Positions 1,591 to 24,281 of a DNA stretch of 44,628 bases are shown in pieces. The position numbers and the translations under genes are program-made. The notes below the pieces were generated by a model. That model saw only the letters and a list, made by a program, of their open reading frames with translations, was not told where the DNA came from and did no database searches. The stretch is from Nitrospira sp. (GTDB taxonomy: Bacteria; Nitrospirota; Nitrospiria; Nitrospirales; Nitrospiraceae), in the NCBI GenBank assembly GCA_030444405.1, contig JARFPM010000014.1, positions 1 to 44,628 of the forward strand, in the 5' to 3' direction. Numbering within the stretch: position 1 is the stretch's first letter; every line of letters begins with the position of its first letter.

Positions 1591-1994
1591 GGAGGATTTG
1601 TTGACCTGATGATCTGTCGATCTGTTGAGCGTCTACCGGACTTTGCCGTTCGCCTGGATGCTGAAAAAATGGCCAGTAGTTCTTTGGCCTCTTGGAAGAG
1701 AGTGATCGTCCTGCCCTCTTGAGAAATGCCTGATTCAATAAGAAGCTCTAGCTAAAACATCGTTTCATCTGCTTCTTCGACAACCGTTCCAAACTTTGCG
1801 ATAAACTCCGCACGGGAACGAGCCCGGCAGACCGCTCTGTAATTAGCCGCGACTGATGTCCCAGATCGAACAAGTTGCCGCCCAAGCACACGAGCCTCAG
1901 ATGTCTTTGGAAGACCTCCAGAAAGTTTAAGAATGACGAGCGCAAATTCCTTCGATCTCTTCGCTAAATCCTGTGTTGAAGCGAAATCTTTCAC
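1587..1994 (-). pseudogene. Four-helix-bundle protein (TIGR02436-like), interrupted by an amber codon
   Basis: The frame from a GTG at 1992-1994 gives MKDFASTQDLAKRSKEFAL, then RSGTSVAANYRAVCRARS and KFGTVVEEADETMF, the core of the 23S rRNA-intervening-sequence/four-helix-bundle family. A TAG at 1752-1754 follows. Reading past it gives LELLIESGIS and continues in frame to a TGA at 1587-1589 that overlaps the hemD start. Relatives of this type have tryptophan at the TAG position (ADET-x-x-WLELL), so one G-to-A change in TGG explains the stop. The full frame would be about 135 residues, normal for the family. Either the gene is inactivated, a truncated product is made, or the base is wrong. Start choice is uncertain: TTG codons at 2000 and 2003 are alternatives. 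Confidence 0.8.
1595..1629 (+). repeat. 8-nt tandem array, left flank of the broken four-helix gene
   Basis: Four 8-mers in register: GATTTGTT, GACCTGAT, GATCTGTC, GATCTGTT, then GAG. The array lies just upstream of the hemD start and inside the read-through 3' end of the four-helix frame, where it encodes most of the tail residues. An array with the same consensus (GATYTGTY) but opposite orientation lies beyond the other end of the gene. Confidence 0.75.
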
Positions 1995-2022
1995 AATCAA
2001 CAAATCGTCAGATCGACAGATT
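1991..2022 (-). repeat. 8-nt tandem array, right flank of the broken four-helix gene
   Basis: Read on the minus strand: AATCTGTC, GATCTGAC, GATTTGTT, GATTGTGA. It is the inverted counterpart of the array at 1595-1629 and overlaps the possible start codons (TTG, GTG) of the four-helix gene. Confidence 0.7.
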
Positions 2023-2152
2023 CCTTACTTCCCACAGGCATGATCGTACCACAGCCGTCGAGCCAGTGGCCTGAGCGGATTTCCCGTTGACGACTCGCAG
2101 TCGCCTCCCTACTATACAGACTCCAATCTGATTCACAAACGAGTTGCTTTGC

Positions 2153-2590
2153 ATGACGGCTCCACTCCATAGAGGTCTTCGGCATTTAGCCCTGCGTGTC
2201 ATCGACCTTCAACGCTCACGCCGATTCTACGAAGAGCTCCTCGGCTTTCAGTCGGTGTGGGAACCAGACCCGGAGAACGTCTATTTTAGCTCGGGGGTCG
2301 ACAACCTGGCACTTCATCAGATCTCAAAGACAGAATTGGACTCCTACGATTCTTCGAAGACCCAACTGCTCGATCATATGGGTGTGATTCTCGACAGCCC
2401 ACAAGCCGTCGATCAGCTGTACCAAGCCATCGCACCCAAGATCGAACCGATGGGCGGGCGAATCACCAAAGAGCTGAAGCAACACCGTGACGGCAGTTAT
2501 TCGTTCTATTTTTCCGATCCCGATGGCAACGTGATCCAGGCGCTCTATGAACCGGCGATCAGCAAACTCAGAATCAGTGCTGAGTCCTAA
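2153..2590 (+). CDS. VOC-family (glyoxalase/dioxygenase fold) protein
   Basis: A 145-residue single-chain vicinal-oxygen-chelate protein with paired beta-alpha-beta-beta-beta modules: LRHLALRVIDLQRSRRFYEE at the N-terminus and YSFYFSDPDGNVIQALYEP at the C-terminus. The metal-ligand positions of the fold look occupied (His in LRHLAL, a central His in LLDHMGVIL, Glu in ALYEP), so it could be a metal-dependent lyase or dioxygenase; the substrate cannot be told. I chose the ATG at 2153; a TTG at 2144 would add three residues. The last codons and the TAA stop are made of the 7-nt repeat array that flanks the next gene, so the original C-terminus may have been altered. Confidence 0.8.
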   Translation: MTAPLHRGLRHLALRVIDLQRSRRFYEELLGFQSVWEPDPENVYFSSGVDNLALHQISKTELDSYDSSKTQLLDHMGVILDSPQAVDQLYQAIAPKIEPMGGRITKELKQHRDGSYSFYFSDPDGNVIQALYEPAISKLRISAES

Positions 2591-2605
2591 GTGCTGAGTG
2601 CTGAG
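2576..2605 (+). repeat. 7-nt tandem array, left flank of the intact four-helix gene
   Basis: Units AGTGCTG, AGTCCTA, AGTGCTG, AGTGCTG, AG in exact 7-base register. The first units encode the last residues (Ser-Ala-Glu-Ser) and the stop of the VOC gene. The same unit recurs inverted at 3036-3056, on the other side of the four-helix gene. Confidence 0.9.
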
Positions 2606-2622
2606 AAGTTGAAGAAACGACC

Positions 2623-3024
2623 ATGCCGGAACATAACGCAGCACGGCGGTTCGAGGATCTTATTGCATGGCAGAAAGCGCGAGAGTTAACTCGAAGAGTG
2701 TACGAGGTAACCGGCACAGGAGCTTTTTCGAGGGACTTCGGATTACGAGATCAGATGAGACGTTCGTCGGTCTCGATTATGGCAAATATTGCTGAGGGAT
2801 TCGAGCGGGCTAGGCAATCGGAATTTCACCAGTTCTTGAGCGTCGCCAAGTCCTCTTGTGCGGAATTACGCTCTCACTTGTACGTCGCCCATGACGCCAA
2901 GTATGTTGACACCAGGACGTTCGATGACCTCATGCGCATAGCGCAAGAAGTCTCTCTTGTACTCGGTGGTCTCAGATCAGCAGTCCACCGCCGCCGTGCA
3001 GAACAGAAACCATATGGCAGTTAA
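2623..3024 (+). CDS. Four-helix-bundle protein (TIGR02436 / IVS-type)
   Basis: 133 residues with the family core: RFEDLIAWQKARELTRRVYE (helix 1), FGLRDQMRRSSVSIMANIAEG (helix 2 with the hallmark Arg-Arg-Ser and Asn-Ile-Ala-Glu-Gly), RQSEFHQFLSVAKSSCAELR (helix 3) and a last amphipathic helix. The family was first seen inside intervening sequences of 23S rRNA genes, forms ring-like oligomers and is related to the Avd partner of diversity-generating retroelements; its free-standing role is unknown. No reverse transcriptase or variable repeat is near. The gene sits exactly between inverted 7-nt arrays, suggesting an inserted unit. The broken relative at 1587-1994 is of a different subtype. Confidence 0.9.
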   Translation: MPEHNAARRFEDLIAWQKARELTRRVYEVTGTGAFSRDFGLRDQMRRSSVSIMANIAEGFERARQSEFHQFLSVAKSSCAELRSHLYVAHDAKYVDTRTFDDLMRIAQEVSLVLGGLRSAVHRRRAEQKPYGS

Positions 3025-3035
3025 TCCTTTCGCCT

Positions 3036-3056
3036 CAGCACTCAGCACTCAGCACT
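3036..3056 (-). repeat. 7-nt tandem array, right flank of the intact four-helix gene
   Basis: Three perfect CAGCACTs (the complement of AGTGCTG) in a row. With the array at 2576-2605 it makes a terminal inverted repeat; outward of the units both sides also share a TAAGTGCTGAG-like edge. The ATG of the next gene follows only 7 bases later, so the array may carry part of its 5' untranslated region. Confidence 0.9.
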
Positions 3057-3063
3057 TATACTC

Positions 3064-4695
3064 ATGAGCCAGACCTGGGACAACCTACCACGCGGGCATT
3101 ATGTGGCCCTGGTCCCCTGGTGCTGGGTACAGTTGGAGAGTGCCGAACCGCCTGGGCCTTTCCCTTTCGTGGGCGGGGTGGCGCCTGAAGTCGTCGCCGG
3201 CCTCCAAGAGGCTCATAGCCTCCTCTCCAGTGCGATCGATACAGCCATCAGCGATGTCTTTTCGAAACGAGCGCCGCTTGACGACCCCGATCGCCGGCGA
3301 CGGCTGGAAGATGCCTATGCAGAGCTGGTCAACGCACGGCCATATCTTCGACAACACATTCACTGCGGGCGACGATCGGATGGGACCTTTCACTGGGAAT
3401 TCCCGGCTGATCCAGCCAAATCCGCGACCGTGACCAACGGTGGTCTCCGTATCTTTCATGCGATCAATCATCAGGCGATCCCCATCGGATTCAACGGACG
3501 GCCGCTGGGTCCCCTCGTAGGGAAACTGCTCGGTCTGCTCGACGGAACCCATACCGCGGACGACCTCCGTTCCGCGGTGTCGGTCATGCCGCGCGATTCG
3601 CAGATGGTGCTGACGAAGGTGATGGAATCACTCCACCAGTATGGGTGTCTGGCCGTTTCTGCAACGACTTCTATCCAGCCACATTGGTATGACGTGGTTC
3701 AGGATCAAGACATCGTGCACCTCGGACATGCCGCCCTCCTCTACCGGCAACGAGACACCGCACTCCTCTTCGACCCATGGCTTCTGCCTTGGTTTGCCGA
3801 ATCGCCGTTGCCGTCGATCTGGAGCGGATTGTTCCCAAAACCCGCCGCCGTGTTTCTGACTCACGACCACGATGATCACGTCGATCCCCGCACCTTGCTC
3901 CATTTGCCGAAAGACACGCCGATCATCGTGCCCAGTCGGCGGAATCGAACAGGACTGTTTTTTGACTATCGGTCGCTTCTCGCAGAACTGGGTTTCGACC
4001 GAGTCATCGAGCTGGCCCATGGAGAAACTTGGCCGTTTGAAGGCGGTGCGGTCGTGTCCGTCCCCTTCTACGGAGAGGACCCTTGCGACTTGAACATGCC
4101 CAGGAATTGTTACTTAATTTCCGATCGAGGGCATAATGTGCTGATCCATGCGGACAGCGGTCCGACGAACGACGGACGATCCGCGCTCAAGGACCATGTC
4201 ATCCAGCAATTGGTCGGGCAATACGGATCGATTCCGCTCGTGTTCGCGTCACAGCAGCAATTACTTGAAATCCGAAGCCATGCCGCCCATGCCCCCCTCT
4301 CCCATCCCGGCAAATGGCTGGACGTCGGCGAAAACGGCTATCTCACGAACGCCTATCTCGCCGAGTTGTGCGCGGCCGCCCACGCACGATTGTTCGTTTC
4401 ATACGCCACCGGTGGAGCTGACTGGTACCCCGATCACCTGTCTTTCATGTTCAGCCGCCGTAATCCTTGCAGAACCGCACTATTGACGGCCCATTGGGAA
4501 CAACCTGAAACATTGAAAGACCTTCTTGTTTCACAGCAATGCCGCTATCATCGTGCCCATACCCTCGATCTCTATCGAGCCATGAGCGGGGGGATGGTCG
4601 AGGCAATTTCGGCGGGAGAGTCCCTCGCCCCGCTGATGTTGTATCGGTTGGACCACGGCGATCCGCCGTTCATGAAGGCAGGCAAGGGACGATAA
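3064..4695 (+). CDS. Metallo-beta-lactamase-fold hydrolase with PqqD/RRE-like N-terminal domain
   Basis: 543 residues, cytosolic. Residues about 145-200 (GPLVGKLLGLLDGTHTADDL and a following helix ending in LHQYGCLAV) have the spacing of PqqD-like winged helices, the fold used as RiPP recognition element. The catalytic part follows: LGHAALLYR, LLFDPWL, then the metal motif HDHDDH at residues 267-272 and later a His/Asp-containing LIHADSGP, as in UlaG/L-ascorbate-lactonase-like members. The first 140 residues resemble nothing I recognise. The gene is 24 bases upstream of the epimerase on the same strand and probably co-transcribed. The substrate is unknown; no RiPP precursor or YcaO/radical-SAM gene is in view. 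Confidence 0.75.
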   Translation: MSQTWDNLPRGHYVALVPWCWVQLESAEPPGPFPFVGGVAPEVVAGLQEAHSLLSSAIDTAISDVFSKRAPLDDPDRRRRLEDAYAELVNARPYLRQHIHCGRRSDGTFHWEFPADPAKSATVTNGGLRIFHAINHQAIPIGFNGRPLGPLVGKLLGLLDGTHTADDLRSAVSVMPRDSQMVLTKVMESLHQYGCLAVSATTSIQPHWYDVVQDQDIVHLGHAALLYRQRDTALLFDPWLLPWFAESPLPSIWSGLFPKPAAVFLTHDHDDHVDPRTLLHLPKDTPIIVPSRRNRTGLFFDYRSLLAELGFDRVIELAHGETWPFEGGAVVSVPFYGEDPCDLNMPRNCYLISDRGHNVLIHADSGPTNDGRSALKDHVIQQLVGQYGSIPLVFASQQQLLEIRSHAAHAPLSHPGKWLDVGENGYLTNAYLAELCAAAHARLFVSYATGGADWYPDHLSFMFSRRNPCRTALLTAHWEQPETLKDLLVSQQCRYHRAHTLDLYRAMSGGMVEAISAGESLAPLMLYRLDHGDPPFMKAGKGR

Positions 4696-23417: not shown

Positions 23418-24239
23418 ATGGGTCCCCCAGCCGCCATCCCCTACCCAAATATCGACCCAGTCCTCGTGTCGCTGGGCCCCATTCAGTTGCGCTGGTATGG
23501 CTTGATGTACTTGATCGGCCTCACCTCGGCCTACTTCCTCATCCAACACAAGGTTGCGCGCAAAGGGTTGGCGCTCAGGAAGGACCAGATTTACGACATG
23601 GTGGTCTATGCCGCCTTCGGCGTTTTCCTGGGTGGACGGCTCGGCTATACGCTGTTCTATAACTTCTCGTACTACATCGGAAATCCGCTAAAACTTCTCG
23701 CGGTCTGGGAAGGAGGCATGTCCTTCCACGGCGGACTCATTGGGACCATCATTGCGCTGATCTGGTTCAGCCGAAGGCAAGGGATTCCCGCCTACACCAT
23801 CGCAGACTTGGCGGCCTGCGTCACACCGATCGGGCTCGGGTTCGGCAGGCTCGGGAACTTTATCAATGGTGAACTGTACGGCAGGCCGACGGACGTTGAC
23901 TGGTGCATGGTCTTTCCGACCGGAGGCCCTGCTTGCCGTCATCCGTCGCAATTGTATGAAGCCACGCTGGAGGGCCTGACGCTGTTCGCGGTGTTATGGT
24001 GGATCGATCGGCGTCCGACCCCGCCCGGTACCCTCTTCTGGACCTTCCTCACCGGCTACGGCATCAGCCGACTGATCGTTGAACTCTTCCGTGAACCGGA
24101 TCAGCACTTGGGGTTTATCTTGGGACCGATCACCATGGGCCAAATTCTCTCCTTGCCCATGGTGCTGGTTGGAGCCGTTATGCTCATCTTGGGCTACTCC
24201 AAGGCTTCGCCCAGCTCCTCGTCCAAGGGGAAACTTTAA
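23418..24239 (+). CDS. lgt: Prolipoprotein diacylglyceryl transferase
   Basis: 273 residues, about seven transmembrane helices. It moves diacylglycerol from phosphatidylglycerol to the lipobox cysteine of prolipoproteins in the inner membrane. The signature GRLGNFINGELYGR holds Arg144, matching E. coli Arg143, with Asn and Glu in place. GGMSFHGGLIG and HPSQLYEATLEG are further Lgt marks; ISRLIVELFREPDQHLGF is near the end. AAGCAAGGTA precedes the ATG. Its client in the window is the binding lipoprotein at 20846. Confidence 0.95.
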   Translation: MGPPAAIPYPNIDPVLVSLGPIQLRWYGLMYLIGLTSAYFLIQHKVARKGLALRKDQIYDMVVYAAFGVFLGGRLGYTLFYNFSYYIGNPLKLLAVWEGGMSFHGGLIGTIIALIWFSRRQGIPAYTIADLAACVTPIGLGFGRLGNFINGELYGRPTDVDWCMVFPTGGPACRHPSQLYEATLEGLTLFAVLWWIDRRPTPPGTLFWTFLTGYGISRLIVELFREPDQHLGFILGPITMGQILSLPMVLVGAVMLILGYSKASPSSSSKGKL

Positions 24240-24281
24240 GTTTCTGGTTTCGAGTTTCGAAACTTGCAACTCGAAACAGGC

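Follow-up and report, generated by a model that had tools for sequence, protein, structure and literature searches.

An intact gene for a four-helix-bundle protein in Nitrospira and the inverted arrays of 7-nt units on either side of it were inserted or lost as a unit. The favoured explanation is a small mobile cassette composed of a left array, the four-helix gene, and an inverted right array, and this reading, as proposed in full below, is given a probability of roughly 0.6. Comparable gene–array blocks occurred in many bacterial phyla and in some archaea, suggesting that such mobile elements are common but largely overlooked, and that they lack any recognised mobility enzyme. The window, the whole stretch of 44,628 nucleotides that was analysed, is a contig of a 3.46-Mb draft genome, where only this gene and one other, decayed four-helix gene matched PF05635.

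The intact gene (2623–3024, plus strand) encodes a protein of 133 residues and scored 120.1 bits against PF05635 (cut-off 33.8) and 108.7 bits against TIGR02436 (cut-off 24). The element lies between two protein genes, outside any rRNA gene. The upstream neighbour is a VOC/glyoxalase-family gene (2144–2590, plus strand), whose stop codon falls in the left array region, and the downstream neighbour is a putative metallo-beta-lactamase-fold (MBL) gene (3064–4695, plus strand; weak Pfam matches), which adjoins VOC in empty relatives. Tandem Repeats Finder returned a left array at 2576–2605 (period 7, 4.3 copies, 82% matches) and a right array at 3034–3056 (period 7, 3.3 copies, 100% matches). By repeat and complementarity analysis, the right arm (3034–3058, minus strand) comprised three perfect inverted CTCAGCA units and TA. 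The left arm (2588–2605, plus strand), formed by two AGTGCTG units and flank, was 100% complementary to 3041–3058 over 18 nt and provided the VOC stop codon TAA at 2588–2590.

The inverted arrays and the intact TIGR02436-type gene of the preliminary description were confirmed, whereas the first two of its four left units (2576–2589, plus strand) are probably native VOC 3′ end and target, outside the inserted element. This segment aligned with the array-free loci L092 and L103. The VOC end in array-free relatives read AGTGCCGACTCATGAG or AGTGCTGAGACATGA at the array position, so that 2576–2589 most plausibly represents native sequence. The element itself would then contribute about two units on its left side (2590–2605) and three on its right. 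Where AGGACTG-type elements or hairpins had been inserted, the array appeared to take the place of the last VOC codons and to provide the stop.

The preliminary description was also right that one intact gene is bracketed, but it had missed a second, decayed four-helix gene 600 bp away with inverted 8-nt arrays of its own and a different unit. This gene (1668–2003, minus strand), found by PF05635/TIGR02436 search, was interrupted by one TAG codon. Its downstream arm (1606–1628, minus strand) consisted of 8-nt ATCTGTTG-type units, and its upstream arm occupied 1997–2021 (minus strand). The arms matched at 83% between 1606–1628 and 1997–2019, and at 100% between 1612–1624 and 2009–2021. The second element as a whole (1592–2021) sits between HemD-like and VOC genes, a site that was filled in four genomes and short (77–116 bp) and empty in about 30 relatives.

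The architecture of gene and arrays proved to be general. A family set contained the 30 best PF05635 loci from the same taxonomic family, picked by HMM score only, and a GTDB-wide set contained 80 loci found by protein pattern, of which 77 were usable. Each locus was scored by aligning its two 250-bp flanks in inverted orientation without gaps and taking the best match, with a threshold of at least 12, and windows shifted by 600–800 bp at the same loci served as controls. Arms reached the threshold at 28/30 and 53/77 loci in the two sets, compared with 2/118 and 5/287 control windows, respectively (~2%). In an enlarged set, inverted arms flanked 121 of 157 four-helix genes. The arm period was 7 in 75 and 8 in 14 of the surveyed genes, and the arms were typically spaced by 360–550 bp. 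Hosts with arms included Acidobacteria, Bacteroidota, Planctomycetes, Verrucomicrobia, Proteobacteria, Clostridia, CPR, and Methanophagales archaea, and all six plasmid loci of Nostoc, Calothrix, Trichormus, and Riemerella had arms. About a quarter of the surveyed genes had no scored arms. Arm-poor members were considered as rRNA intervening sequences (IVS), and this was rejected on finding no rRNA at 20 loci without clear arms.

Arm unit and polarity went along with the protein subtype. When element pairs with unrelated flanks were compared, unit and polarity were common to 80% of the pairs at 70–80% protein identity, to 38% at 60–70%, and to at most 4% below; sharing of a unit in opposite polarity was not found among these pairs. 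The correlation between protein identity and arm unit (Mantel r = 0.245) was reached by 0 of 2000 permutations. Within the set, L221 had the closest protein (86% identical); it came from another genus and an unrelated locus, and its gene was likewise flanked by AGTGCTG arms. The subtype HW(K/R)ELEVW went with GGGGTAAC, and the subtype RDFRKLKVWEK with TCAGCNN. The arms were also kept matched to each other. In 64 of 76 comparisons (p = 3 × 10^-11), a left arm matched the right arm of its own element better than right arms from other elements with the same unit, and the two arms are therefore kept complementary. At two composite sites, L072 (around 600) and L017 (around 1500), GTGAAAG/CGTGAAG-type units stood on one side and AGTGCTG-type units on the other, as would result from recombination or nesting of two elements.

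When the VOC–MBL junction was compared among 50 congeners, including the window, 24 junctions were empty, 11 carried a gene, 14 carried gene-less hairpins, and one was unclear, all classes being assigned by eye from the junction sequences. In an empty site, the VOC stop codon overlapped the MBL start codon or preceded it by at most 7 nt, with no array. The gene-bearing junctions had AGTGCTG or AGGACTG arms, and the 14 hairpins consisted of other units. At least four or five array types were found at this junction (L079–L128) within one genus, a pattern of an insertion hot spot. The states were interleaved on a VOC+MBL tree, with empty L113 grouped with gene-bearing L111 and L115, and the hairpin of L117 beside empty L119; this interleaving could be partly due to exchange of whole alleles between species.

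Two Nostoc plasmids, with backbones 91–99.7% identical, carried different four-helix elements, one to either side of a shared gene; at base resolution, each plasmid served as the empty site for the element of the other. The first junction was GGTTCTA[AATCAGGAG...TCTGATT]ATGCAAATC when filled and GGTTCTAGGTTATGCAAATC when empty, and the second was GAGGTAATG[TTAGGGG...GTGAATT]ATGGGATTTG and GAGGTAATGGGATTTG, respectively. No constant target-site duplication was observed, with 0 nt and 3 nt (ATG) at the Nostoc junctions and an ambiguous result at VOC–MBL. The classical features of IS and MITE elements, a constant duplication and transposase-type ends, were thus absent, whereas filled and empty orthologous sites, by which mobile elements generally are recognised, were present at VOC–MBL, HemD–VOC, and the Nostoc plasmids. 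Gene and arrays form one unit, inserted and lost together, as shown by the array-free empty sites, the reciprocal Nostoc plasmids, and the sense placement after a stop codon. The array-free empty sites, together with the recurrence of the same gene type and unit at unrelated loci, support the earlier suggestions that the arrays belong to the unit and that it is a mobile cassette without a transposase. Empty relatives, which it had been suggested to check for leftover arrays, carried none. The designation 'site-specific' was not supported: the elements occupied various sites, although almost all of these were at a stop codon.

The window protein is an Xcc0516/Avd-fold four-helix bundle under purifying selection. 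It was predicted by AlphaFold2 as a confident four-helix bundle (pLDDT 94.5) and matched the structures of Xcc0516 (2GSC) with a TM score of 0.92 and BT_0352 (2RLD), followed by Avd (4DWL), with a TM score of 0.85, and the diversity-generating retroelement (DGR) ribonucleoprotein. Both Xcc0516 and Avd are pentamers. Invariant residues included Trp16, Tyr27, Gln44, Ser51, Asn55, Glu58, Gly59, Ser78, and Glu81, and dN/dS was 0.05–0.25 where dS was not saturated. Profile searches of the window protein matched PF05635/TIGR02436 only, with no catalytic family. Empty sites, junction anatomy, and orientation counts show that the cassette enters or leaves gene junctions whole, just past the upstream stop codon and usually in the direction of the operon. 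In the proposed mechanism, the protein, presumably a pentamer, may bind the folded hairpin arms, serving in recognition or packaging; strand cutting and joining would be provided by a host enzyme or by an activity not yet recognised. The population behaviour would be similar to that of RAYT/REPIN in that each genome has one gene per type and many hairpins without a gene, but the protein has no known catalytic domain.

Among elements with callable neighbours, the upstream codirectional stop codon was at a median of 1.5 nt from the left arm. In 67 cases the gene had the orientation of both neighbours, and in 4 it was opposed to both, counts that were based on longest-ORF calling and include related loci. 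This bias could reflect selection or a sense-strand mechanism. Such orientation, and the placement between stop and start codons, would be expected of an insert acting at the RNA level like an IVS. The arms would then base-pair within the operon mRNA and be cut by RNase III, the protein would bind this RNA, and spread would occur through the sense strand or RNA. In the predicted RNA the arms paired end to end, the fold resembles Avd of a ribonucleoprotein, and 23S rRNA IVS with the PF05635 family are excised by RNase III (PMC4990558). However, the arms of the minus strand paired as well, many carriers had no reverse transcriptase (RT), and selection alone can yield an orientation bias, so that this explanation is regarded as doubtful, if still a serious one. 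The arrays were also considered as three-frame stop signals, which was rejected; inward stops in all frames were present in 26% of arms, compared with 38% of shuffled units.

Gene-less arrays were abundant. In this genome, pattern searches, on which these counts rest, found 15 gene-less pairs of the AGTGCTG unit within 150 bp, all of them convergent, in addition to solitary arrays. The preliminary description had named arrays equally frequent without a four-helix gene between them as evidence against it, and taken literally this was the case here, with 15 gene-less convergent pairs against one gene-bearing pair. The relation is nonetheless one-way: arrays accompany most four-helix genes, but a gene accompanies only a minority of the arrays, as would be expected if these were gene-less derivatives. 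The roughly 15 hairpin pairs of this genome, which share unit and polarity, look like non-autonomous derivatives of the element. At 24238–24277 of the window, directly after a stop codon, stood a short hairpin without a gene, built of GTTTCGA-type units and apparently representing another array family. Near-identical copies of the gene within one genome were not found, the copies fetched being at most 60% identical, and there is therefore one gene per type. Among 59 congeners, the array count was higher with a close homologue (p = 0.007, raw), and this excess fell to p = 0.12, no longer significant, after the gene's own arms were subtracted; the abundance of gene-less arrays thus did not clearly depend on a resident gene. 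Some congeners with no detected gene had 24–42 array matches, and the two highest counts of the GTGATGA unit were in genomes without a close homologue. In genomes G166 and G160, GTGATGAGTGATGAGT arrays gave 123 and 41 matches, and no gene more than 50% identical to the cognate type was found; the arrays may have multiplied in a burst once the gene was lost, or a different mobiliser may be involved. This weak dependence on a close homologue counts against the cassette reading, as do the absence of recent near-identical gene copies, the inconstant target duplication, the quarter of genes without scored arms, and the possible exchange of whole alleles.

The excess of gene-less over gene-bearing arrays would also be expected if the arrays were independent intergenic repeats and the gene moved passively by recombination between donor and recipient arrays. 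The coexistence of gene-bearing and gene-less states at VOC–MBL is compatible with such shuttling, as is the single AGTGCTGA-like unit in empty sites near AGTGCTG-type insertions. It is nevertheless unlikely, since empty sites, both Nostoc sites included, had no array, the different units at one junction had no homology, and array polarity relative to the gene was fixed.

Mobilisation in trans by a known enzyme, either an RT, in the manner of Avd, or a Y1/HUH transposase, in the manner of REP elements, is suggested by the Avd-like fold and by the hairpin ends, but is judged improbable. Neither candidate correlated with four-helix genes (Spearman −0.03 for RT and 0.10 for Y1/HUH, not significant; only RT and Y1 were tested, and some genomes were drafts). 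RT was missing from 27 of 37 genomes with at least five four-helix genes, and eight genomes with at least five had neither enzyme, so that a resident RT or Y1 transposase is dispensable. A low-complexity coincidence at a single locus, to which the probable native origin of the first two left units might point, was refuted by the survey of 157 genes against the ~2% of control windows and deserves virtually no credence, the five matches to AGTGCTGAGTGCTG in the window (at most 2 mismatches; 0.27 expected) all being at AGTGCTG arrays and 0 of 100 shuffles reaching this number.

Beyond the cassette itself, it is conceivable, but held only tentatively, that the four-helix pentamer itself moves phylum-spanning elements without a transposase, recombinase, or RT. 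The cognate protein would then read inverted 7/8-nt array ends, the heptamer arrays of many bacteria would be non-autonomous descendants, and rRNA IVS would be a specialised branch.

Several known systems share features with the cassette. The 23S rRNA IVS with an S23p/IVP ORF in Leptospira and Coxiella also belong to PF05635, are about 430 nt long and sporadic, and have the ORF within a stem of terminal inverted repeats, whereas the present element lies between protein genes, has tandem array ends of 7/8 nt, and has abundant gene-less copies. A mobile origin of these IVS was proposed in 1993, as cited in PMC4990558. In RAYT/REPIN (REP-associated tyrosine transposase; PMC3116915, PMC8266576), there is likewise one gene per type per genome with many short intergenic gene-less inverted pairs of matching unit; however, RAYT is a Y1 transposase and the REP units are palindromes, whereas the present protein had no catalytic match and its units are tandem heptamers. 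The resemblance of PF05635 to Avd, the DGR accessory protein of the same fold, has been published (PMC10053308), but no RT, template, or variable repeat was found at this locus, and many carrier genomes are RT-free.

Intergenic tandem heptamers have been reported before. GGGAATC units form about 70–75 inverted pairs per genome in Xanthomonas, where no association with mobile elements was found and no gene or binding protein was named, and arrays with no known partner also occur in Nostoc (PMC4692102). The intergenic TAACTGA heptamers of Beggiatoaceae were likewise described with no gene or binding protein named (PMC4679880); their complement, TCAGTTA, is the unit in the arms of L044 and L164. 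No literature link of the PF05635 family to such arrays was found in a search that left aside preprints and most subscription papers. We propose that the four-helix gene is the missing partner of the intergenic heptamer repeats of Xanthomonas and Beggiatoaceae. This would give a role to the 'four helix bundle protein', which is among the commonest annotations, and would provide a partner for the heptamer repeats of Xanthomonas, Beggiatoaceae, and cyanobacteria. The proposal of 1993 that rRNA IVS arose from mobile elements would become directly testable and, if it is true that the protein alone acts on the arms, the family would represent a new way to move DNA or RNA.
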